This document shows positions 33,880 to 50,067 of a DNA stretch of 51,247 bases, piece after piece; the stretch's first letter is position 1; the number at the start of each line of letters is the position of its first letter. The DNA comes from Cnuella takakiae. Lineage in GTDB: Bacteria; Bacteroidota; Bacteroidia; Chitinophagales; Chitinophagaceae. The stretch covers positions 4,787,521 through 4,838,767 of the forward strand of contig NZ_MTFE01000010.1 of the NCBI RefSeq assembly GCF_001953305.1, written 5' to 3'. The translations under genes were made by a program, and so were the position numbers. The notes under the pieces are model-generated. The model saw only the letters and a list, made by a program, of their open reading frames with translations, searched no databases and was not told the origin of the DNA.

Positions 33880-33952
33880 ACTCATTTTTATGGTTGCCGG
33901 TAGCCGGTAGCCCATTTTGGTGAGCGTTTAAAAAAGGTTCAAATCATTATGA

Positions 33953-36899: not shown

Positions 36900-37026
36900 G
36901 GGAACACGGATGGAACGGATGAAACGTATTTATGTTTCACGCAGAGGGCGCAGAGGAGCAGGGAGCGCAGAGCTTTCAAAATCCGTTCTTACCCGTTTCA
37001 TCCGTCCAATCCGTGTTCCTATTCCC
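36900..37026. repeat. Element E2: inverted arms of 9-bp units
   Basis: The left arm (36900-36926) and right arm (36994-37019) are complementary (GGAACACGGAT...CGGATGAAACG), built from CGGATnnnn steps of 9 nt. The middle (36939-36973) is a run of CGCAGAGGG-type units, also about 9 nt. Confidence 0.8.
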
Positions 37027-39904: not shown

Positions 39905-39922
39905 GGAGGAGGTCGATCATTT

Positions 39923-40012
39923 ATCGTGAATGGGGAATGGTGAATGAGCAATACTGCCGGTCTATTGGTGTATTCAATATTCACAATTCACCATTGACCA
40001 TTCACCGTCCGG
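39923..40012. repeat. Element E3: inverted arms of 7-bp units (ATGGTGA type)
   Basis: Left: ATCGTGA ATGGGGA, then ATGGTGA ATGAGCA. Right, complemented: ATGGTCA ATGGTGA, then ATTGTGA ATATTGA. It lies in the divergent leuS/ftsX promoter region, 18 nt from the leuS ATG. Confidence 0.85.
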
Positions 40013-40118
40013 CAATATCCGCCGGCCCCTGCCGTTAAAGGTTGGCAAAAATAACTGATTGATCCTGTAATACATGGCCTTTCGCCGAGGGTCTTCCCCC
40101 TTTCTGACCCTGATCCTT

Positions 40119-40126
40119 TATTTTTG
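40119..40126 (+). promoter_or_regulatory. Bacteroidota -7 box for ftsX
   Basis: TATTTTTG fits TAnnTTTG, 25 nt before the ATG at 40152. It supports that start over the ORF beginning at 40074. Confidence 0.6.
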
Positions 40127-40151
40127 CCCCACTTCAAAAACAACTGAACCG

Positions 40152-41024
40152 ATGTCGCAATTTGGCAAAGCCGCTTCCAAACGTGGAAAACCGTCCTACT
40201 TCATGTCGATCCTGGGTGTAACCCTGGTGCTTTTTCTGTTGGGCATCGTGGGTTGGATCACCATCAACTCGCAAAAACTGATCGAATATTTCAAGGAGAG
40301 TGTGGAAGTACAGGTGTTCCTCAAACCCAATATCCAGGACACCGCCCGCCAAAGCCTGCAAAACTATATTGCCGCCCAGCCTTATACCAAGGCGGTGCGC
40401 TATACCGATAAGGAATCAGCCAAAAAAGAATGGATGAAAACCGGTGGCGAAGATTTTACCGAGTTCCTCGACAACGCACTGCTGCCTACTTCCATCGATT
40501 TTACCCTCAAGGCCGACTTCGTGGATTCGGTGCGCCTCAACCAGATCAAGACCACCATCGGCAGCAACCCCAACGTGGATGAAGTAAAATACCCCACCGC
40601 CGTGGTAGGCAAGATGCAGCGCAACTTCAACCTGATCAGCCTGGTGCTGGCAGGCGTGGCCATCCTCATCGCCGTGCTGGTAATTGTGCTGATCGACAAT
40701 ACCATCCGCCTGGCGATGTTTTCGAACCGCTTTATCATCAAAACCATGCAGATGGTGGGTGCTACGCGCTGGTTTATTGCCAAGCCGCTGAACATCAGGG
40801 CTATTGTAAACGGCGCTGTATCGGCACTGATTGCCATTGCACTGGTGTATGGCGTCATCACCGTTGCCGAGCGCTTCCTGCCCGACCTGCAGGCCCTCCG
40901 CGACAACGGCCTGCTGCTCCTTTTGTTCCTGGCACTCATCATCATCGGCATCACCATCACCCTTTTCAGCACCCACCGCAGCGTGGTGAAGTATTTGCGG
41001 ATGAAGCTGGATGAACTGTATTAA
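40152..41024 (+). CDS. ftsX: Cell division / ABC transporter permease FtsX
   Basis: The 290-residue protein has the FtsX layout. One membrane helix (about 20-38) is followed by an extracytoplasmic domain (45-170, VEVQVFLKPNI...YTDKESAKKEWM), then three more helices with the conserved cytosolic loop MFSNRFIIKTMQMVGATRWFI. It ends in FSTHRSVVKYLRMKLDELY. With the ATPase FtsE (not in the window), it forms an ABC-type complex that controls peptidoglycan hydrolases at division. DUF3098 and uppP follow, the usual order in Bacteroidota. Confidence 0.95.
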   Translation: MSQFGKAASKRGKPSYFMSILGVTLVLFLLGIVGWITINSQKLIEYFKESVEVQVFLKPNIQDTARQSLQNYIAAQPYTKAVRYTDKESAKKEWMKTGGEDFTEFLDNALLPTSIDFTLKADFVDSVRLNQIKTTIGSNPNVDEVKYPTAVVGKMQRNFNLISLVLAGVAILIAVLVIVLIDNTIRLAMFSNRFIIKTMQMVGATRWFIAKPLNIRAIVNGAVSALIAIALVYGVITVAERFLPDLQALRDNGLLLLLFLALIIIGITITLFSTHRSVVKYLRMKLDELY

Positions 41025-41025
41025 T

Positions 41026-41115
41026 CAGCTAATTAGCCAATGGGCTAATTAGCTAAAATATCTACAGCTAGTTGCCTTCATTAGCACATTAGCATATTAT
41101 CACATTAGCTCATTG
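41026..41115. repeat. Element E4: inverted arms of 8-bp units (GCTAATTA type)
   Basis: Left: GCTAATTA GCCAATGG, then GCTAATTA GCTAAAAT. Right, complemented: GCTAATGT GATAATAT, then GCTAATGT GCTAATGA. It starts 2 nt after the ftsX stop. The core ACAGC...TGCC and TTAGCACATT resemble E8. Confidence 0.88.
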
Positions 41116-41153
41116 TCCTTTTTCCTTTTCTTTGCCCCACTTAAGTTTGATTC

Positions 41154-41432
41154 ATGGAAACAAAAACAAAAAGAACGGCCCTCGATACAGAAACCGCTTC
41201 CGGTGCCGGCCGCGTTTCTTTTTTTGATAAAAGCAATTACACCTGGATGCTGATTGGCGCCGCGGTAATGATTGTGGGCTTTCTGCTGATGGCCGGCGGC
41301 CGCAGCGAAGACCCCAACGTGTTCAAACCCGAAGAAGTGTACAGCACTACCCGCATCACCATTGCGCCCATCCTCATCCTGGCAGGCCTGGTGATCGAGA
41401 TCTATGCCATCTTTCGTAATCCCAAAGCCTGA
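41154..41432 (+). CDS. DUF3098 family membrane protein
   Basis: The 92-residue protein has two membrane helices (about 27-45 and 65-83). It carries the DUF3098 signature FDKSNYTWMLIGAAVMIVG and the second-helix start YSTTRITIAPILILAGLVIE. The family sits between ftsX and uppP in Bacteroidota and may help cell-envelope function, but no activity is known. The next gene starts 22 nt downstream, so they form an operon. Confidence 0.92.
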   Translation: METKTKRTALDTETASGAGRVSFFDKSNYTWMLIGAAVMIVGFLLMAGGRSEDPNVFKPEEVYSTTRITIAPILILAGLVIEIYAIFRNPKA

Positions 41433-41454
41433 CCCGCTCATATTTCAATAATCC

Positions 41455-42312
41455 ATGAGCATTCTTGAAGCCGTTATCGTGGCCATAATTGAAGGCCTGA
41501 CCGAGTTTTTGCCCGTGTCTTCCACCGGGCATATGATCATCGCCTCCTCACTATTGGGCGTAGCCGAAAACGACTTCACCAAGGTATTTGAAGTTTCTAT
41601 TCAGCTGGGCGCCATCCTGGCCGTAGTGCTGGTATACTGGCGCAAGTTTTTCCAGTTCAACAACCCCATTTTTTACGCCAAGCTCATTGCCGGCGTTGTG
41701 CCCGCCCTGCTGGCAGGCCTGTTTTTCAACGATGCCATCGAGGCCCTGTTGGGCAGCGAACTGGTGGTAGCCATCGCCCTGCTGCTGGGTGGCTTTATCC
41801 TTTTGTACATCGACCGCCTTTTTCCACAGCCTGTTCACTCCGACCTGCTGGCTACCGAAACTACCCGTAGCGAATTGATTGAAGCCGACGAGCAACTGAC
41901 TTTTAAAAAAGCGTTTGTTGTGGGTTGCTGGCAGCTCCTGGCCATGATCCCGGGTGTGAGCCGCAGTGCTTCCTCCATCATTGGTGGCATGCAGCAAAAG
42001 TTGAGTCGCAACTTCGCTGCAGAATTCTCTTTCTTCCTGGCCGTACCCACCATGGTGGCGGCAACCGGTTATTCCCTTTTCCTGAAAGACTGGGGTACAG
42101 AAGAAGCCAAGGGCTTTGAACTGATCCTGGCATCGCAGCAAAACATCATTGCCTTTGTGGTTGGCAACATGGTGGCCTTTGTGGTGGCGCTACTGGCTAT
42201 CCGCTTCTTTATTTCCTATTTAAAAAAATACGGTTTCCGCATCTTCGGCATCTACCGCATCATTGTTGGCACCATCCTGATTGTGTTGTACTGGATGGGA
42301 CTGCTCGGGTGA
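41455..42312 (+). CDS. uppP: Undecaprenyl-diphosphatase (UppP/BacA)
   Basis: The 285-residue integral membrane enzyme turns undecaprenyl diphosphate into the monophosphate carrier used for cell-wall synthesis, and over-expression gives bacitracin resistance. Motifs: EGLTEFLPVSSTGH (first active site region, with Glu17 and the Ser/His pair) and PGVSRSAS (second, with Arg). There are about eight membrane helices. It follows DUF3098 and stands near ftsX, a usual gene order in this phylum. The next gene in related genomes is often truB; here an intergenic repeat and an UMF1 transporter follow. Confidence 0.96.
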   Translation: MSILEAVIVAIIEGLTEFLPVSSTGHMIIASSLLGVAENDFTKVFEVSIQLGAILAVVLVYWRKFFQFNNPIFYAKLIAGVVPALLAGLFFNDAIEALLGSELVVAIALLLGGFILLYIDRLFPQPVHSDLLATETTRSELIEADEQLTFKKAFVVGCWQLLAMIPGVSRSASSIIGGMQQKLSRNFAAEFSFFLAVPTMVAATGYSLFLKDWGTEEAKGFELILASQQNIIAFVVGNMVAFVVALLAIRFFISYLKKYGFRIFGIYRIIVGTILIVLYWMGLLG

Positions 42313-42411
42313 TTGATGATTATTGATTATTCAAGTCAACCTACTGTGGCAACTGGTCCCAAACCAGGAAAACGCCAATAATTAGTAATGAATAATCAAT
42401 AATCACTCACT
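42310..42411. repeat. Element E5: inverted arms of 7-bp units (TTGATTA type)
   Basis: Left: ATGATTA TTGATTA TTC. Right, complemented: GTGAGTG ATTATTG, then ATTATTC ATTACTA. The left end overlaps the uppP stop codon (42310-42312). Confidence 0.85.
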
Positions 42412-42472
42412 AAGACAGCCAGCTGCAATCAAGGGCACAAATGCCTATTTTCACAGCCTTACAATTCCACCA

Positions 42473-43795
42473 ATGCAGCAAACCGCCTCCAAAAAAGTGG
42501 TGAATGCCTGGGCCATGTACGACTGGGCCAACAGTGCGTACAACCTGGTGATCACCACCACCATATTTCCCGAATACTTTGCCGCCATTACCGGCGATGA
42601 TAACCCGGCAACCTTGGACACGGTCCAGTTCCTCGGCCGCACCTTCCGGAGCGATTCGCTGTATAGCTACTCCTTATCCTTTGCATTCCTGATTGTAGCA
42701 CTGGCATCTCCCCTGCTTTCTTCCATTGCTGATACCAGGGGTAATAAGAAGCACTTCCTGGCCTTCTTCATGACCATGGGCAGCATCGCCTGTTGTTCGC
42801 TGTACTTTTTTACCAGTGAACGACTGGGGCTGGGCATCTTTTGCATGATTATCGCCTGTATCGGCTATTGGTCGAGCCTGGTGTTTTACAACTCCTACCT
42901 TCCCGAGATTGCCGCACCACAGGACCGCGACCGCATTTCGGCAAAAGGTTTTGCCTTTGGTTATATCGGCAGCGTGCTGCTGCAGTTGATCTGTTTCCTG
43001 TTTGTGCTCAAGCACGACTGGTTTGGTTTTGCCGATACAGGAGCAGGTTCACGCTTTTCGTTCCTGGCAACGGGCATCTGGTGGTTCCTGTTTGCACTGG
43101 TGCCCCTGTACCGCCTGCCCCGTTATAGCATGACGCTTATTGATCCCAACCGGAGCGCGGTGTTCAATGGCTATGTAGAACTGCGCAAAGTATGGCAGCA
43201 ACTAAAACAACTACCACCCCTGCGCCGCTTCCTGGGTGCCTATTTCTTTTACAATATGGGCGTGCAAACGGTGATGCTGGCGGCAACGCTGTATGCTAAA
43301 TCGGAACTGCAGATACCAACGGCCAACCTGATCATAGCCTTGGTTTTGATCCAGTTGATTGCCGTACCCGGCGCTTTTGCCATTTCCAAACTTTCAGAAA
43401 AAGTGGGCAATATCCGTGCATTGATGATCGTGGTAGCTATTTGGATAGGTCTTTGCGTAGCTGGATACCTGGCACCTGTTGGTGGCGTGGTATATTTCTA
43501 CCTGCTTGCAGCAGCCATAGGCTTTGTGATGGGCGGTATTCAATCGCTTAGCCGCAGCACCTATGCCAAGCTGATGCCCGATACTAAGGATACCACTTCA
43601 TTCTTTTCCTTTTTTGATGTAACTGAAAAGATTGCCAACGTGGTGGGGCTTTTTGCCTTTGGCTATATCAGCGAGCTAACCGGTACGCAGCGCAACTCGG
43701 TACTTGCGCTGGTGGTTTATTTTATCATTGGTTTGCTGAACCTCTTTTATACTTTGCGCACCAAACCCAAAACCGATTATCCCGCAACAGCATGA
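42473..43795 (+). CDS. MFS transporter, UMF1 / Atg22-like family
   Basis: The 440-residue protein has about twelve membrane helices and the UMF1 start MYDWANSAYNLVITTTIFPEYF. Other family features are NSYLPEIA and GGIQSLSRSTYAKLMP plus FFSFFDVTEKIANVVGLF. This group is related to the yeast vacuolar Atg22 amino-acid exporter. The substrate in bacteria is unknown. Its stop overlaps the start of the MBL gene by 4 nt, so the two may act together (for example transport and hydrolysis of one compound). Confidence 0.93.
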   Translation: MQQTASKKVVNAWAMYDWANSAYNLVITTTIFPEYFAAITGDDNPATLDTVQFLGRTFRSDSLYSYSLSFAFLIVALASPLLSSIADTRGNKKHFLAFFMTMGSIACCSLYFFTSERLGLGIFCMIIACIGYWSSLVFYNSYLPEIAAPQDRDRISAKGFAFGYIGSVLLQLICFLFVLKHDWFGFADTGAGSRFSFLATGIWWFLFALVPLYRLPRYSMTLIDPNRSAVFNGYVELRKVWQQLKQLPPLRRFLGAYFFYNMGVQTVMLAATLYAKSELQIPTANLIIALVLIQLIAVPGAFAISKLSEKVGNIRALMIVVAIWIGLCVAGYLAPVGGVVYFYLLAAAIGFVMGGIQSLSRSTYAKLMPDTKDTTSFFSFFDVTEKIANVVGLFAFGYISELTGTQRNSVLALVVYFIIGLLNLFYTLRTKPKTDYPATA

Positions 43796-44652
43796 AACTA
43801 TATACCATCGATACCGAGTTGTTCAAACTGGATGGCGGCGCCATGTTTGGCGTGGTGCCCAAGGTGCTTTGGAACAAGATCAACCCGGCCGACGAAAACA
43901 ACCTCTGTACCTGGGCCATGCGCCTGCTGCTGATTGAAGATGCTGGCCGGCTGATACTGGTAGACACCGGCATCGGCAATAAGCAGGACGAGAAGTTCTT
44001 TGGGCATTACTACCTCCATGGCAATGCCACATTGAACAACTCGCTGGCAAAGCATGGTTTTCATCGGGATGACATTACTGATGTGATCCTCACCCACCTG
44101 CATTTCGATCATTGCGGCGGTGCCATTGTACGCAACGGCGAAAGACTGGAGCCGGCCTTTAAGAATGCCCGCTACTGGAGCAACGCACAACACTGGGACT
44201 GGGCCGTTCATCCCAACGACCGCGAAAAAGCATCATTCCTGAAGGATAATATATTACCCATCCAGCAAAGCGGCCAACTGAACTTTATCACCATGCCACA
44301 AGGCGGTGGCGACCAACTAGCTACTGCATCTTTTGCACAGGATATTTCCCTGCGTTTTGTAAGCGGCCACACCAATAGCATGATGCTGCCGCAGATCAAC
44401 TACAAGGGCCGCACCTTGGTGTACATGGCCGACCTGCTGCCTTCTGCAGGGCATATTCCCCTGCCTTATGTGATGGCTTATGATATGTTCCCACTCACAA
44501 CCTTGCAGGAAAAGAAAAGCTTTCTGACGGAAGCTGTGGAAAATGATTACGTGCTTTTCTTTGAGCACGATCCGCAACTGGAGTGCTGCACCTTGCAGCA
44601 AACGGAGAAGGGAATAAGAATGAAGGAAAGCTTTAAGCTGGCGGAGTTATAG
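43792..44652 (+). CDS. MBL-fold metallo-hydrolase
   Basis: The 286-residue protein has the metallo-beta-lactamase fold metal site: LTHLHFDHCGG (HxHxDH), with later His in SGHTNSM and the Asp in MADLLPSAGH. The start YTIDTELFKLDGGAMFG and the VDTGIG strand are typical of the quorum-quenching lactonase or related esterase groups. These use two zinc or iron ions to hydrolyse esters or lactones. The start codon overlaps the transporter stop (ATGA). No signal peptide is seen, so it is cytosolic. Confidence 0.9.
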   Translation: MKLYTIDTELFKLDGGAMFGVVPKVLWNKINPADENNLCTWAMRLLLIEDAGRLILVDTGIGNKQDEKFFGHYYLHGNATLNNSLAKHGFHRDDITDVILTHLHFDHCGGAIVRNGERLEPAFKNARYWSNAQHWDWAVHPNDREKASFLKDNILPIQQSGQLNFITMPQGGGDQLATASFAQDISLRFVSGHTNSMMLPQINYKGRTLVYMADLLPSAGHIPLPYVMAYDMFPLTTLQEKKSFLTEAVENDYVLFFEHDPQLECCTLQQTEKGIRMKESFKLAEL

Positions 44653-44708
44653 GAAAGCGTATTTGCAATTATTCCTTCATTTAGTAAGGTCGGAAATACT
44701 TAGCGTTT

Positions 44709-44794
44709 GTCATGCCGAACTTGTTTCGGCATCTCCTTTTAATATCAAAACCTCGGACAGCAGCGGGGGATGCCGAAACAAGTTCGGCATGACA
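44709..44794. repeat. Inverted pair of ATGCCGAA-N5-TTCGGCAT hairpins
   Basis: GTCATGCCGAACTTGTTTCG... (44709-44736) and its inverted copy (44768-44794) each form a hairpin and also pair with each other, a REPIN-like layout. A third copy is at 30337-30357. Confidence 0.88.
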
Positions 44795-44839
44795 GCCACA
44801 AACATGCATTGACTATCCTTGCTACCTTAGAAAGTTTGT

Positions 44840-44910
44840 TCCAAACTCCAAACTCCAAACTCCAAACTCCAAACTCCAAACAAGAAACGAAAAACCAAAA
44901 ACCAGAAAAC
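44840..44910. repeat. Element E6: six perfect TCCAAAC units and degenerate 7-mers
   Basis: TCCAAAC is repeated six times without change (44840-44881). Then follow AAGAAAC, GAAAAAC, CAAAAAC and CAGAAAA in the same 7-nt phase, to 2 nt before the stop of the DUF3108 gene at 44913. No left arm is seen. Confidence 0.92.
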
Positions 44911-44912
44911 GT

Positions 44913-45710
44913 TCATTTCCGCAATTTCACCAACGCCTTCATCGGGTACCGCAATCCCCTATATCCCATCATATCCACTTTCACCGATCCTACTACGATC
45001 GGGCTTTCAATACGCACCGGCATGCGGTTGGCATCGTTGGTAACCCAAACGGTCATCTTTTCACCGCCTTCGAAGATGGTACCTTTTATCAGCAGCGGGC
45101 TGAACTTGATGGCCCGGAACGTACCATAACGGGTCTTCACTTCTTCCACGCCCAAGAAGCGCACATAGAGGTTGTGCAACTCTTCGTCTAAAAACATGGA
45201 GAAGGGTATTTTATCACCGGGCTTATACCGCGCATAGTTGATGTTGCGGGCATAATAAATGGCACTGAGCACATCCTGTACACAGGCCGGAACTTTGTAC
45301 ACGCCTTTGCTGGTGATGGCTGTATTGGCAGCTTTGTTGAACGTAACGTTCTCTAACTTTTTATCACCGCCCTCATATACGTTGCGGATAAACTTCAGCG
45401 GCAGCATGGAAGCCGTATCCACAAAGGTTTCGTACCGGTCGCGCACCTTGTAGATCCAGTCGTAGGAGTTATGGGTGCGCCCCTCGCCAACAATATGGTA
45501 GGTAGGGCGGCCATTGGTAGCAACAAGGGTTGTGGTAAAAGACGCTTCACCCGCATTGACATACACACCGGCAAGATTGTAAAACACGTTGAACCGGATT
45601 TGCTCACCGGCACTGAACGAGGTATTGCGGATCCCGCAAAACTCATCATGTTGCGGAGCCTGCAACGCCAACATCGGAAACAACAGCAACAAAAAAAGCA
45701 GTAAACGCAT
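44913..45710 (-). CDS. DUF3108 domain exported protein
   Basis: The 265-residue product has a signal peptide (MRLLLFLLLLFPMLALQAP) and a single DUF3108 domain. Characteristic strands are GEQIRFNVFYNLAGVYVNAG (early, the membrane-facing cavity), YDWIYKVRDRYETFVD and MTVWVTNDANRMPVRIESPI near the end. The fold is a beta-barrel-like sheet, thought to bind a lipid or sugar polymer, but its role is unknown. It is transcribed away from ruvC, with a short 81-nt region between. Confidence 0.92.
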   Translation of the reverse strand: MRLLLFLLLLFPMLALQAPQHDEFCGIRNTSFSAGEQIRFNVFYNLAGVYVNAGEASFTTTLVATNGRPTYHIVGEGRTHNSYDWIYKVRDRYETFVDTASMLPLKFIRNVYEGGDKKLENVTFNKAANTAITSKGVYKVPACVQDVLSAIYYARNINYARYKPGDKIPFSMFLDEELHNLYVRFLGVEEVKTRYGTFRAIKFSPLLIKGTIFEGGEKMTVWVTNDANRMPVRIESPIVVGSVKVDMMGYRGLRYPMKALVKLRK

Positions 45711-45924
45711 CCGAATGATTTGAACTACAAGATAAGACAGGCTGCAAAGGCCCGGTGTTAATTCCGTTAAGCAACAATTATCTGGACTGCAATGATCAGG
45801 AAGCTGTTAAAAAAATGTCTTGACCTGCATCATTCATTGGCCTGCAACAGCACAGAAACGAACATTCAACGGCTGTCTGTTCCTTTCAGCCGAACAGGCG
45901 AAAGCCCGTTGCGGGATATTTGGT

Positions 45925-45932
45925 TAGCTTTG
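45925..45932 (+). promoter_or_regulatory. -7 box for ruvC inside the longest reading
   Basis: TAGCTTTG fits TAnnTTTG and lies 49 nt before the TTG at 45981. Because it sits inside the frame that starts at ATG 45792, it argues that the long start is not used. Confidence 0.5.
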
Positions 45933-45980
45933 CTGCCTGACCCAAGCGGGTCCACTCATTCACCAGCAATACCCCCGTCC

Positions 45981-46559
45981 TTGCAAAAACCAGAGAAGAT
46001 CATATTAGGCGTTGACCCCGGCACCCTCGTTATGGGGTATGGATTGATTGCCGCCAGTGGCGATACCATCAAGGTCATTAGCATTGATGCCCTGAAACTA
46101 TCGGCTAAAAAAGACAACTACGAACGCCTGCGGCTGATTTACCAAAAGATTGCGGAAATAGTACAGCTATACAAACCCACCGAGTTTGCTATTGAAGCAC
46201 CTTTCTTTGGCAAGAACGTACAGAGTATGATGAAACTGGGAAGGGCGCAGGGTGTGGCCATCGCCGCTGCCATGGCCGGCAATATTCCCGTTACCGAATA
46301 CTCGCCCAAAAAAGTAAAGCAGGCCATCACCGGCAATGGTAACGCCGACAAGGAACAGGTATGGCAGATGCTCCAACGCATTACGGGCCTGGAAGACCGC
46401 CCTGCCGTATTCGATGCTTCCGATGCCCTTGCCGTAGCCATTTGCCACCACTTCTCTGCCCAGCGTCCCTACGCCGCCAGCGCCACACCCAACAAAAGAG
46501 GCCGCAGCAAGGCTGGATGGGATGCTTTTTTGCAGCAGAACCCGGAAAGAATTGGGTGA
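45981..46559 (+). CDS. ruvC: Crossover junction endodeoxyribonuclease RuvC
   Basis: The 192-residue product resolves Holliday junctions with RuvAB. The four acidic residues are visible: ILGVDPGT (Asp), AIEAPFFGKN (Glu), and the DASDALAVAICHH segment (two Asp). KLGRAQGVAI and KKVKQAITGNGNADKEQV are family features. The frame is open from ATG 45792, but that adds 63 residues of low-similarity sequence. A TTG at 45981 gives MQKPEKIILGVDPGT, the usual length, so TTG is taken. The last residues (KRGRSKAGWDAF) are a lineage-specific tail. Confidence 0.9.
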   Translation: MQKPEKIILGVDPGTLVMGYGLIAASGDTIKVISIDALKLSAKKDNYERLRLIYQKIAEIVQLYKPTEFAIEAPFFGKNVQSMMKLGRAQGVAIAAAMAGNIPVTEYSPKKVKQAITGNGNADKEQVWQMLQRITGLEDRPAVFDASDALAVAICHHFSAQRPYAASATPNKRGRSKAGWDAFLQQNPERIG

Positions 46560-46570
46560 GGGAAGGGGAA

Positions 46571-46790
46571 AATGGGAAGGACGAAGTGGGAAGTTAGAAG
46601 CGGGACGGAGATCAGTAAAGACGAAAAAGATCATAATTAAATTGAAGAGCCCTTTAGGATTGCAGCGGATGCGCAATTCTAAAGGGCTCTTTTATTCAAC
46701 AGAAACGTCTTTGTGGACATTACTGACTTATGTCTTTTCAAACTTCGTACTTCCCACTTCGTACTTCCCACTTCGTACTTCTCACTTTTT
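46571..46790. repeat. Element E7: inverted arms of 7-bp units (GGGAAGT type)
   Basis: Left (46573-46606): GGGAAGG ACGAAGT, then GGGAAGT TAGAAGC. Right (46738-46795), complemented: GTACGAA GTGGGAA, repeated three times. Between them is a terminator (46645-46694). The right arm covers the HIT gene stop (46782). Confidence 0.88.
46645..46694. terminator. Terminator between ruvC and the HIT gene
   Basis: AAGAGCCCTTTAG and CTAAAGGGCTCTT with a TTTATT tail, stem also extended by ATTGC/GCGCAAT. The two genes are convergent, and the element's arms flank it. Confidence 0.85.
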
Positions 46791-47186
46791 CCCCACTTCC
46801 ATCGCCTTCAATATCTTTTCCTGCACTTCCTTCAGGGCAGCATCATCGGCCTTGGCTTTGGGCTGGGCAAAGTTCAGATCGTTGGCAGTGCTGATGGGCA
46901 TGAGGTGCAGGTGGGCATGGGGCACTTCCAGTCCAATTACCGAAATACCGCATCGGCGGCAGGGAATGGCTTTTTCGATGGCCTTTGCAATTGGTTGTGC
47001 AAACACCAGGATTTCCGACAGGTAGTCGGCTTCCAGGTCGAAGAACTTATCTATTTCCACTTTGGGTATGACCAGCACATGGCCGGTACGCAAGGGATAC
47101 ACATCCAGGAATGCATAAAACTTATCGTTCTCGGCAATCTTAAACGAAGGGATTTCGCCGGCAATGATCTTTGAAAAAAGAGTCAT
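46782..47186 (-). CDS. HIT family hydrolase (histidine triad)
   Basis: The 134-residue protein has the HIT fold: FAFLDVYPLRTGHVLVIPK-like second segment (YAFLDVYPLRTGHVLVIPK) and the triad PHAHLHLMP. Members hydrolyse nucleotide phosphoramidates or dinucleoside polyphosphates (Hint/Ap4A type). The C-terminal helix LKEVQEKILKAME closes the domain. It is downstream of greA on the same strand and separated from it by repeat E8, so it is probably read from the same transcript. Confidence 0.93.
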   Translation of the reverse strand: MTLFSKIIAGEIPSFKIAENDKFYAFLDVYPLRTGHVLVIPKVEIDKFFDLEADYLSEILVFAQPIAKAIEKAIPCRRCGISVIGLEVPHAHLHLMPISTANDLNFAQPKAKADDAALKEVQEKILKAMEVGKK

Positions 47187-47194
47187 GATAATAT

Positions 47195-47286
47195 GGTAAT
47201 GTGATAATGTGATAATTAGCTAATGTGCTAATGGAACAGCCGGCTGCCCTTTTTAGCACATTAGCTAATTAGCCAATTAGCTAATT
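47195..47286. repeat. Element E8: inverted arms of 8-bp units (GCTAATGT type)
   Basis: Left: GGTAATGT GATAATGT, GATAATTA GCTAATGT, GCTAATGG. Core GGAACAGCCGGCTGCC. Right: TTAGCACATTAGC and TAATTAGCC units. It spans the greA-HIT space and reaches the greA stop (47285-47287). Confidence 0.9.
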
Positions 47287-47758
47287 AAATAGAGATTTCT
47301 TCCACTTTAAATTTGATTACACCAGCGGGGGCCACCACTTCGGCTATATCACCCACCACCTTACCCAACAGGCCCTTGCCTATGGGCGAGGAAAAAGAGA
47401 TTTTACCCAGTTTCAGGTCGGCTTCTTTTTCACTTACAATCTGGTAGGTTACTTCTTTCTTGGTGTTCAGGTTGGTTACCCGCACTTTGGTGAGGATGGA
47501 CACTTTGGAAGTATCGATGGTAGATTCATCCACAATACGGGCAGTAGCGATCTGGCCTTCCAGCACGGCAATACGTGCTTCCAGCAGGCCCTGGGCCTCT
47601 TTGGCCGCATCGTATTCGGCGTTCTCACGCAGGTCGCCTTTTTCGCGGGCTTCAGCAATGGCACGCGAAGCCGCAGGGCGGTCAACGGTGCGCATCTTTT
47701 GCAGCTCGGCCCTCATTTGCTCTAAAGTTTCCTTGGTCACGTACTGAACACTGCTCAT
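47285..47758 (-). CDS. greA: Transcription elongation factor GreA
   Basis: The 157-residue product has the N-terminal coiled coil of GreA with the tip GDLRENAEYDAAKEAQG (acidic residues that act in RNA polymerase's active site). A C-terminal FKBP-like domain follows (KVRVTNLNTKKEVTYQIVSE and SFSSPIGKGLLGKVVGD). It rescues backtracked RNA polymerase by stimulating transcript cleavage. The ATG at 47758 (MSSVQYVTKE) is chosen; the frame extends upstream by 30 residues of unrelated sequence. Confidence 0.96.
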   Translation of the reverse strand: MSSVQYVTKETLEQMRAELQKMRTVDRPAASRAIAEAREKGDLRENAEYDAAKEAQGLLEARIAVLEGQIATARIVDESTIDTSKVSILTKVRVTNLNTKKEVTYQIVSEKEADLKLGKISFSSPIGKGLLGKVVGDIAEVVAPAGVIKFKVEEISI

Positions 47759-47956
47759 ACAAAAATCGCTTTTGGTAAAAGAGTAAAAAAAACCGGTGAG
47801 GGTGTTCAGCACCTCCACCGACATACAAAAAAGCCCTCCCAAAGGCACCGGCCTTGGGGTAGGACGAAAAAAATAGCAACGCCCCAGCGGTAACTGAAGC
47901 GTTGCATAGTGGGGTAAAGATAAAAATATTTTGAATGAAACAAGAGGGAGGGAAAA

Positions 47957-48043
47957 TGAGCTAATTAGCTAATGTGATAATGAGCTAAGAGAACAGCCTC
48001 GATCCTTTTAGCACATTGGCTAATTAGCTCATTAGCCAATTAC
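47957..48043. repeat. Element E9: inverted arms of 8-bp units, same type as E8
   Basis: Left: GAGCTAATTAGCTAATG, GATAATGA. Core AGAACAGCC...CCTTTTAGCACATT, which matches E8 except for the inner bases. Right: GGCTAATTAGCTCATTAGCC. It ends 2 nt before the stop codon (48045) of the dehydrogenase gene. Confidence 0.9.
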
Positions 48044-48044
48044 C

Positions 48045-48992
48045 TCACAGTTTTCCTGCTGCTTCCAGTTTCTCCAACAGCACTTCCGACATGCGGCGGT
48101 AAGCTTCGTGGCTGTAGCCGGCAATATGTGGGGTGACGATCACATTCTTTTGGACTTTCAGGAAGTCCAGTTGTTCCTGCTGCCCGGGCGTATAGGTTGC
48201 AAACTTTTCGTTTTCCAAAACATCCAGTGCGGCACCGGCGATCTTGCCGTTTTTCAAAGCTTCGATCAGGGCGGCGGTATTGGTAACCTTGCCCCTGCAT
48301 GTGCTCATGAAGTAAGGCTTGCGTTGCAGGCTGTTGAAAAACTGTGTGCCCGCCAGGTGATAGGTTTCATCGGTCAGCGGTACATGGAAAGAAACAACAT
48401 CGGCTTCGGCGGCAATCTGCTCCAGGGTGGCTTCGTGAACATAATCGTTTGCAAAACCCTGCTTGTACTTATCGCAAGCCAGCACCTTTACGCCAAAACA
48501 TTGCAGCAGGCGGCCAAAGGCTGCACCATTGTTGCCATAACCTACAATGCCTACCGTGCGGCCGCTCAGTTCCGTCCCCCGGTTTTCGTTGCGCAACCAA
48601 AGTCCCTGTTTTACTTCCTCGTAGGAGCAGGAAATGCGGTTCATGAGGTTGAGGAGCAGGCCAAGGGCATGCTCCGCCACAGCATTGCGGTTGCCTTCAG
48701 GCGTGGACATGCAGAAGATGCCTTTAGTTTCGGCATAGGCTTCGTCAATCAATTCCATGCCACTGCCCAGCCGGCCAATCCAATGTAGTTGGGGCGCAGC
48801 ATCCAATACGCGTTTATCAATTTTCAGGCGGGTGGTTACTACCAACCCATTCATAAATGGGATACGCTCCAGCAGCTCCTCATAAGTGATCTTGGGTGCG
48901 TATTCTACAGTATAGCCTTTTTCTTCAAAGGCTTCAATCAGCATATCGTGAACCGGTGCGGTAATGAGGATGCGGGTTTGTTCGGTGGCCAT
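48045..48992 (-). CDS. D-2-hydroxyacid dehydrogenase (PGDH-like)
   Basis: The 315-residue product belongs to the D-isomer-specific 2-hydroxyacid dehydrogenases. The NAD site is [16 protein letters not shown]. Catalytic residues are the Arg in [19 protein letters not shown], the Glu in LENEKFATY and the His in [12 protein letters not shown]. It is most like phosphoglycerate dehydrogenase type enzymes that lack the C-terminal ACT domain. The true substrate may be phosphoglycerate, or another 2-oxoacid. It lies between rsmA and greA on the same strand, with repeats E10 and E9 on either side. Confidence 0.9.
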
Positions 48993-49199
48993 GAATTATG
49001 AATAATGAGGGATGAGTGGTGAAGAGTGAATAAAAAGGGATGAATAATGAGGTATGAGTAGTGAATGATGAATGGTGAGTGATGAATAGTAGCAATAAAT
49101 TATTATGCTCCTGGAATAAGCCAGTATGCGTAACCAGCCAGTTACTTATAATTCATCCCTCATCATTGATTATTGATCACTCATCACGCCTCATTGCAT
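48993..49199. repeat. Element E10: long inverted arms of 7-bp units (ATGAATA type)
   Basis: About 14 units in the left arm: ATGAATT ATGAATA, ATGAGGG ATGAGTG, GTGAAGA GTGAATA and so on to 49090. Right, complemented: GTGATGA GTGATCA, ATAATCA ATGATGA. The 207 nt run from the dehydrogenase ATG into the rsmA stop codon (49191-49193). Confidence 0.92.
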
Positions 49200-49943
49200 G
49201 CGAAACGTAAGTGCGGCAAAATCAGCAACGTTCAATTGCTCGGGGCGTTTATTGAAAATTTCGTCCTGCAGGGTAGCAGCGTCAAACAGGCCCTTGCAGG
49301 CATTGCGCAGTGTTTTGCGGCGCTGCTGAAAAGCGGTTTTTACAAGGTTGAACAAACGCTTTTCACTGTGCATGGGCACGGGTTCTTTTCGGGGCAACAG
49401 CCTGATGACCGCACTCTTTACTTTAGGCGGCGGGTTAAAGGCATCTTCATCCACCTGGAAGAGGTACTCGGTATCAAACCAGGCTTGCGTCAGTACGGAA
49501 GTTACCCCGTACACTTTGCTGCCATGCCTGGCCACAATACGTTCGGCCACTTCTTTTTGAAACATACCTACCATGCATTCCACGGCACCTTTCCATTCCA
49601 TGATCTTGAATACGATCTGTGTGGAAATATTATAGGGGAAGTTGCCCACAACAGTGAAGGGTTCCGCAAAAGGCGGCTCTATGTCGAGGAAACTTTTATG
49701 AATGATTTTATCGGCAAGCTGGGGATAGGTTTTAGAAAGATATTTAACCTTTTCATCATCAATCTCCACGGCTTTGAAATCAACTGCTTTCAATTCCAGC
49801 AGGTACTTGGTGAGGGCGCCACCACCGGGACCCACTTCCACCAGCCGCTGAAAAGGCTGCTTTTGCAGTTCCGCCACAATACGCTGACACACACTTTCAT
49901 CTTTCAGAAAGTGCTGCCCAAGCGATTTCTTGAGTGTGTACAT
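49191..49943 (-). CDS. rsmA: 16S rRNA (adenine1518-N6/adenine1519-N6)-dimethyltransferase
   Basis: The 250-residue RsmA/KsgA enzyme dimethylates two adenines in helix 45 of 16S rRNA. The SAM site is LVEVGPGGGALTKYLLE and the catalytic motif is GNFPYNIS (NLPY type, here with Phe). The C-terminal helical domain has KTAFQQRRKTLRNACKGL. It is short, starting MYTLKKSLGQHFLKDE. Loss gives kasugamycin resistance in other bacteria. Its divergent neighbour is pdxA, with element E11 in the shared promoter space. Confidence 0.96.
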   Translation of the reverse strand: MYTLKKSLGQHFLKDESVCQRIVAELQKQPFQRLVEVGPGGGALTKYLLELKAVDFKAVEIDDEKVKYLSKTYPQLADKIIHKSFLDIEPPFAEPFTVVGNFPYNISTQIVFKIMEWKGAVECMVGMFQKEVAERIVARHGSKVYGVTSVLTQAWFDTEYLFQVDEDAFNPPPKVKSAVIRLLPRKEPVPMHSEKRLFNLVKTAFQQRRKTLRNACKGLFDAATLQDEIFNKRPEQLNVADFAALTFRMQ

Positions 49944-49961
49944 GGGGCAAAGGTCGGGAAT

Positions 49962-50067
49962 AAGGGATTTCGGATTTGAGATTTCGGATGTCGGTATTTG
50001 TCACTGTAGCAAAGGGCAATACTGTAGTACACGGTCCGAAATCTCAAATCCCAAATCCTCAATCTCT
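49962..50067. repeat. Element E11: inverted arms of 7-bp units (GGATTTC type)
   Basis: Left: GGGATTT CGGATTT, then GAGATTT CGGATGT. Right, complemented: GATTTGG GATTTGA, then GATTTCG GACCGTG. The element takes up most of the 160 nt between the divergent rsmA and pdxA start codons. Confidence 0.9.

Follow-up and report, generated by a model that had tools for sequence, protein, structure and literature searches.

Gaps between genes in the bacterium Cnuella takakiae carry degenerate tandem arrays with a strict period of 7 or 8 nucleotides, often as two arms in inverted orientation, and we confirm that these intergenic arrays are real and occur well above chance. They had been described in a window of 51,247 nucleotides (contig NZ_MTFE01000010.1, positions 4,787,521 to 4,838,767), where a sequence-only reading had listed eleven elements, E1 to E11. 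Our main sample of 451 kb comprises this window and 20 evenly spaced 20-kb stretches of the same contig of the 5.7-Mb genome; arrays were detected by eye, with Tandem Repeats Finder and with our own period scan, and gene boundaries derive from our own scoring of open reading frames rather than from a published gene caller. The sample holds 106 arrays, 65 with a period of 7, 27 with 8 and 14 with 9, compared with 1-4 in each of ten first-order Markov resamplings. At score 12, 54 period-7 islands were returned, versus 6 in one resampling, and the period scan gave no clear excess at periods 4-6 and 10-13. Neighbouring arrays of the same period form 26 pairs in the real sequence and none in the ten resamplings, the shuffle control that had been named beforehand as the refuting test. 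The members of a pair have a common unit in inverted orientation (agreement of at least 0.6) in 18 of the 26 cases and in direct orientation in 10, and inverted agreement exceeds direct agreement in 20. Among 312 comparisons between arms of different elements, 21% reach the same inverted agreement.

Two 50-kb stretches of Escherichia coli K-12 yielded a single array and no pairs, whereas the congeners G015 and G003 hold 60 and 30 arrays, respectively, in 200 kb each. Across 80 greA loci (900 kb), we counted 73 period-7/8 islands, compared with 8 in shuffled sequence, and 5 inverted pairs in total; the 19 loci with the most similar greA, 213 kb together, account for 27 of the 73 islands. The top named relative by greA is Flaviaesturariibacter aridisoli (80% identity), with other Chitinophagaceae among the next matches. 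Only 5 of 92 period-7/8 islands lie inside called genes and 1 overlaps one. By contrast, 9 of the 14 period-9 islands are inside and 2 overlap called genes; because 11 of 14 are thus in or overlapping genes, period 9 mainly reflects coding sequence and stands apart from periods 7 and 8, and we rejected it as a member of the family to which E2 had been assigned. Arrays are short: 28 of 76 islands and 19 of 34 arms of the class described below have four units, with the score cut-off imposing a floor of about 3.5 units per island. Within arrays, substitutions are clustered by unit column (chi-square/df 1.35, compared with 0.79 for a simulated null).

Units are not specific to each element, as had been supposed. 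Greedy clustering of the units produced six multi-locus groups of periods 7 and 8, and E4, E8 and E9 form one class with 20 further loci from the same genome. The units of this class, picked by similarity to E8 and denoted TAATnnGn, have five of eight columns conserved at 0.88-0.99 (T.88, A.99, A.98, T.96, G/T/A, T/A/G, G.98, C/A; 23 loci). The arm reading as the unit comes first at all 17 loci with both arms, and TAATGTGC is the unit next to the loop in 19 of 34 arms; the loops measure 13-203 nt and are unrelated by eye, and the outer boundaries vary.

The common inverted unit invites the view that the arms of an element are copied from each other, for example by hairpin-templated synthesis. 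This part of the sequence-only reading is not supported by three unit classes, in which arms are no closer in unit identity within elements than after re-pairing, while the picture of a genome-wide intergenic family of one design, its arms built on an inverted common unit, stands. The 19 opposite-strand neighbour pairs of the TAATnnGn class had a mean unit identity of 6.04 out of 8 within elements, compared with 6.03 once the arms were re-paired (p 0.39), and the sharing of exact variants between arms was unremarkable (p 0.30). Ten pairs of the ATGGTGA class on distinct loci gave 4.61 versus 4.56 (p 0.30, and 0.075 for exact variants), and nine pairs of the GCAAAGGC class, likewise on distinct loci, gave 5.69 versus 5.58 (p 0.22, and 0.44 for exact variants); in these two classes the unit arm leads in 9 of 10 and 7 of 9 pairs, respectively. 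Two further classes had only 2 pairs each on distinct loci. By contrast, a mixed heptamer class, seeded with ATGGACC and drifted to ATTCACC, gave p 0.010 for unit identity and 0.065 for exact variants, with several loci entered two or three times. The order of unit variants was common to both arms in 2 of 39 pairs (p < 0.05 versus column shuffles) and in 1 of 39 by unit permutation (mean best match 15.2 versus 14.2), a test of low power because each arm has few units. Arms are nearly identical in a few elements, such as L017 5216-5393 and E11. The arms of one element are mostly not copies of each other.

For period-7 arrays on different 20-kb stretches, an agreement of 0.65 is reached in 11.2% of within-genome pairs, compared with 6.3% of between-genome pairs, when C. 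takakiae, G015 and G003, three congeners, are compared; none of 300 label permutations attained this difference. Best-match unit agreement is 0.69-0.73 within genomes and 0.60-0.65 between them, the latter close to the 0.64 of a column-scrambled null for C. takakiae. As within-genome agreement exceeds between-genome agreement, gaps that are not linked draw on common units inside a genome, whereas congeners have different ones.

The presence or absence of elements in orthologous gaps of close relatives, a check proposed with the sequence-only reading, was followed at six gene pairs across up to 18 congeners. Nine gene names at these gaps were verified against Pfam (uppP corresponds to Pfam BacA), and four rows were dropped: uppP-MFS in G001 and G009 (more than 900 nt apart) and ksgA-dehydrogenase in G016 and G012 (46-nt overlap). 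The greA-HIT gap carries arrays in 8 of 17 genomes, all of period 8, with units that look alike between genomes (TAATTAGC, GATAATGG, GATGATTT and GTTGATTG). At ftsX-DUF3098, 11 of 18 genomes carry them; the period is 7 in ten of these and 8 in the remaining one, C. takakiae. Period is associated with gap (Fisher p 1.2e-4, like all our Fisher tests without adjustment for multiple testing), these two being the best occupied of the six, and of five genomes with arrays at both gaps, four have different periods at the two. Cross-species unit agreement is 0.617 at greA-HIT, compared with 0.514 for non-orthologous period-8 arrays, and 0.540 at ftsX-DUF3098, compared with 0.504 for non-orthologous arrays. 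These data show that two orthologous gaps have passed on their period although the letters of the unit changed. The four remaining gaps are not widely occupied (C. takakiae included, uppP-MFS 5/16, dehydrogenase-greA 1/10, ksgA-dehydrogenase 2/15 and ksgA-pdxA 2/6). Arrays were probably gained in short gaps, because the ksgA-dehydrogenase gap is at most 35 nt in 8 of 13 array-free genomes and 201 nt in C. takakiae.

The arrays hug gene edges. Among 81 gap islands, 45 lie no more than 12 nt from a called gene edge (expected 15; maximum 26 in 1000 placements), and at greA-HIT and ftsX-DUF3098, 17 of the 19 occupied genomes have the start of the first array at most 9 nt from the stop codon upstream. 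Arrays are present in 55 of the 262 sampled gaps that measure at least 60 nt, less often in divergent ones (7/60, compared with 48/202 other gaps; Fisher p 0.048); among the 15 gaps that hold paired elements, 3 are divergent. The seven window elements that were folded as RNA gave z values of -2.3 to -7.6. TAATnnGn arms are AT-rich and have no fixed T run, unlike an intrinsic terminator with its GC-rich hairpin and T run on the 3' side. A polarity of the arrays, with the G-rich strand leaving the gene edge, was considered as a special signal; it is weakened because array-free gap edges before start codons carry the same G skew (29/34 on the right of ++ gaps).

On the basis of these results, we tentatively propose, at somewhat less than an even chance, that these are convergently oriented arrays of a kind known from Xanthomonas, grown into a repertoire whose units are exchanged between unlinked gaps, with a hairpin at the transcript boundary. 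An array is a short run of about four in-register degenerate 7- or 8-mer copies extending from a gene edge, often a stop codon, into the gap, and a second array of the same class enters it inverted from the other gene edge, turning the gap into a long imperfect hairpin. Within one genome, units would pass from gap to unlinked gap when short stretches are copied in register, through template switching or conversion, and this exchange would blur arm-to-arm identity and let the vocabulary drift in each species. Arrays may be kept, or merely tolerated, between transcription units as the RNA hairpin would mark a transcript boundary; this role is the weaker part of the proposal compared with the copying of units between loci, because terminators are not clearly replaced and some arrays occupy divergent gaps. 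A more far-reaching version, which we consider rather doubtful, is that each species of the genus has a small vocabulary of its own, made up of degenerate 7- and 8-mers, which spreads over many, perhaps hundreds of, unlinked gaps and is rewritten there in register. Under this version each gap would inherit its period while its letters follow the vocabulary of the species, a dispersed, satellite-like concerted evolution, the units being approximately independent draws from a class profile.

Several observations weigh against the exchange of units and the boundary role. No exchange event was observed, concerted change being deduced from three genomes. Only two of the six orthologous gaps are widely occupied, the others holding arrays in 4/15, 0/9, 1/14 and 1/5 relatives. 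With all classes taken together (28 pairs), arms match at 0.47 within elements, versus a loose same-class mean of 0.37, and the within-element value is the higher one in 20; the choice of TAATnnGn loci by similarity to E8 may hide a coupling of arms, and the ATGGTGA and GCAAAGGC classes rest on just 10 and 9 pairs. Seventeen TAATnnGn pairs, for which one arm order was required, were kept for register and covariation work; in nested register their variable columns agree at 0.544, compared with 0.542 after re-pairing, and this missing covariation argues against selection on an exact stem. E3 and E11 lie in divergent gaps, where no transcript end is needed. Terminator-like sites occur in 10 of 37 tandem gaps of at least 90 nt with arrays and in 31 of 93 without, which indicates that arrays do not simply replace terminators.

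A purely local origin, in which slippage seeded at the stop codon is followed by hairpin-templated synthesis that copies the array to the other arm by template switching, would account for the 17 of 19 starts near stop codons, for the nearly identical arms of L017 5216-5393 and E11 and for the 20 of 28 pairs that match above the same-class mean. We consider it unlikely, as variant order is not significantly common in 37 of 39 pairs, the arms of the TAATnnGn class, and by unit identity of two more classes, are no closer within than between elements, and independent local seeding could hardly produce one sharp class at 23 loci. Transposition, each class being a family spread by a transposase with the arms as its ends, similar to REPINs or miniature inverted-repeat transposable elements (MITEs), fits the constant arm order at the 17 two-armed TAATnnGn loci. 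It also fits a Flavobacterium-group gap (L210) of 178 nt with an inverted pair of the GCAAAG class, the six relatives matched at both flanks among 41 genomes searched having gaps of 7-17 nt, and the GCAAAG pattern in 20 of 296 sampled Bacteroidota genomes (12/139 genera; none with the reversed pattern). The TAATnnGC triple was found in 3 of the 296, C. takakiae included, and its reversed control in 1; all these counts are of exact patterns and miss diverged units. Mobile DNA appears distinctly unlikely, however, given the unrelated loops and variable outer boundaries, the looser polarity of the other two classes and the array starts, which sit at gene edges instead of being scattered over the gap. 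Moreover, the genome has just two PF01797 (Y1 transposase) genes for several unit classes, and neither locus (about 3.3 kb each) contains a period-8 array, one being devoid of arrays and the other holding one of period 7 and two of period 9.

The elements might alternatively be terminators or insulators maintained by selection, their repeat units incidental. The strong RNA folding and the scarcity of arrays in divergent gaps are in agreement with this, and some relatives have, by eye, ordinary or terminator-like hairpins in the same gaps, for instance uppP-MFS and ftsX-DUF3098. The explanation nevertheless strikes us as improbable, since the stems lack covariation at the variable columns, 3 of the 15 gaps occupied by pairs lie between divergent genes and a separate terminator-like hairpin sits in the loop of E7 and, by eye, of the ftsX gap in G010. 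A protein that binds DNA or RNA and recognises a degenerate 7- to 8-mer, such as TAATnnGn among others, with the arrays as its sites, would explain the division into conserved and free unit columns, visible in the overdispersion and in the five nearly fixed TAATnnGn columns; yet several classes per genome and units that change between species would require several proteins to change together, which makes this very improbable.

Tandem and inverted repeats of several kinds are known. The short tandemly repeated repetitive (STRR) sequences of cyanobacteria are heptamer repeats. REPIN arms are single conserved palindromic words of 20-40 nt and not tandem arrays. Eukaryotic foldback transposons have inverted arms of short tandem repeats and are much longer and known to be mobile. 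Unlike REPINs, the elements described here have arms of tandem 7- and 8-mers with free columns, and no linked RAYT was found at the two PF01797 loci.

The closest published counterpart that we found is the Xanthomonas heptamer GGGAATC (Rehm et al. 2015, PMC4692102), with 70 and 75 convergent pairs in two genomes, so the inverted-arm format that the sequence-only reading did not know was already in print for one heptamer. As in our case, those heptamers are mostly intergenic, lie near gene edges and in some instances over stop codons, form convergent inverted pairs and are scarce between divergent genes; a preference for four units is reported for them. In a sister species the same gap is kept with length and sequence changed, which resembles the kept gaps with changed sequence seen here. 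In contrast, one G-rich type is described there for Xanthomonas and Nostoc (GGGAATC and GGGGA(C/T)T), compared with many units and periods 7 and 8 here. The Xanthomonas and Nostoc repeats are discussed in that text in terms of G-quadruplexes; four G3 tracts occur in only 5 of our 76 islands, and because most arrays lack them this explanation is not general. As the features match except for the many units, the two periods and the few G tracts, we file the elements as a variant of the Xanthomonas kind. The TAACTGA repeats of Beggiatoaceae, Cyanobacteria and five Bacteroidetes (MacGregor 2015, PMC4679880) are likewise intergenic heptamer arrays near gene starts, with shorter, array-free gaps in near relatives. 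They differ in having one unit, direct repeats and no class repertoire, a single indirect repeat being reported in the Maribeggiatoa genome. Both papers relate, after Mrazek et al. 2007, that long repeats have heptamer units more often than any other in most genomes and that a polymerase footprint has been proposed as the cause; inverted arms and concerted unit change are not among the features described for STRR or long simple sequence repeats in the portions consulted. Dispersed inverted pairs between genes with a variable spacer are also found in REPINs and REP-RAYT systems (PMC3116915). For such a unit repertoire in Chitinophagaceae or Flavobacterium we found no report among the titles listed by searches of an open-access library, which largely lacks subscription journals.

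Intergenic DNA is usually seen as spacers with promoters and terminators, whereas here a repeat system fills many gaps; if the 451-kb sample is representative, extrapolation gives about 1,300 arrays genome-wide. Since period follows the gap and letters follow the genome, the question of why heptamers dominate bacterial repeats becomes testable by comparison. Array-bearing gaps may also confuse predictions of RNA families and terminators.

Within the window, the nine elements claimed between 39.9 and 50.1 kb are all present, lie in gene gaps and have the periods assigned to them; eight possess two arms (Table 1).

Table 1. Periodic elements of the window, with arms, units, setting and RNA folding
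Element	Coordinates	Arms	Period and unit	Setting and remarks	RNA fold z
E3	39916-40006	39916-39946, 39971-40006	7, ATGGTGA	Divergent gap	-3.3
E4	41022-41116	41022-41056, 41079-41114	8, TAATnnGn class	Begins at ftsX stop codon	-4.2
E5	42310-42408	42310-42331, 42379-42405	7, TGATTAT	Begins at TGA stop codon	-5.4
E6	44840-44908	Single array	7, TCCAAAC	Six perfect copies, then degenerate ones	
E7	46560-46788	46569-46605, 46752-46788	7	37 nt, 84% complementary, 146 nt apart	
E8	47185-47287	47185-47233, 47253-47287	8, TAATnnGn class	greA stop to HIT-gene start, whole gap	-5.4
E9	47955-48047	47955-47988, 48008-48047	8, TAATnnGn class		-4.9
E10	48991-49193	48991-49085, 49153-49193	7, ATGAnnn	Whole 2-hydroxyacid dehydrogenase-ksgA gap	-2.3
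E11	49960-50066	49965-49994, 50039-50064	7, GGATTTC	Nearly perfect stem; divergent gap ksgA-pdxA	-7.6

Inverted agreement between the arms of E3 is 0.71, compared with 0.36 in direct orientation, and the first arm of E10 consists of two islands that begin 49 (7x7) nt from each other. The loop of E7 holds a terminator-like hairpin (46637-46699; 27 nt, 85% complementary, with a T run), and array arms can therefore enclose an ordinary terminator. A second arm of E6 was not found by direct reading, by the scans or by inspection of the locus for inverted repeats. Beside E6, at 44708-44794, lies an inverted repeat of 29 nt, 97% complementary with a 29-nt loop (TGTCATGCCGAACTTGTTTCGGCATC...), which is not periodic and looks like a hairpin separate from E6. 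E1 (33892-33912) and E2 (36906-36929) stand as weak arrays only: a second periodic arm was searched for near each and not found, the vicinity offering just short inverted pairs of 75-76% complementarity. The 1-27 kb part is free of islands, as claimed, despite 16 gaps of at least 60 nt and 3507 non-coding bases, whereas 2 islands lie in 27-39 kb and 20 in 39-51 kb. An Rfam search of the window gave 0 matches at gathering score.

Runs of N occur at L011 6353-6404, L016 from about 12705, L018 6802-7825, L023 from 19622 and L024 5441-5457; those in L016, L023 and L024 directly follow long perfect heptamer arrays, and long arrays may thus be under-counted. At L210 (about 1570-1725), L206 and L209 of G238, GCAAAG inverted arms stand by eye inside a longer dispersed sequence with ends like CAATGTCATTAAGTT, possibly a MITE-like element that carries the array. 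In L203-L221, TCTC or TCAC precedes GCAAAG arrays, out of period, in 14 of the 22 pattern matches listed, a leader that recurs in several genera. Finally, the two period-9 arrays at the PF01797 locus L196 (3111-3282), CACAGATGACACGGAT... and the inverted ...ATCCGTGTCATCTGTG, lie in the gene flank.

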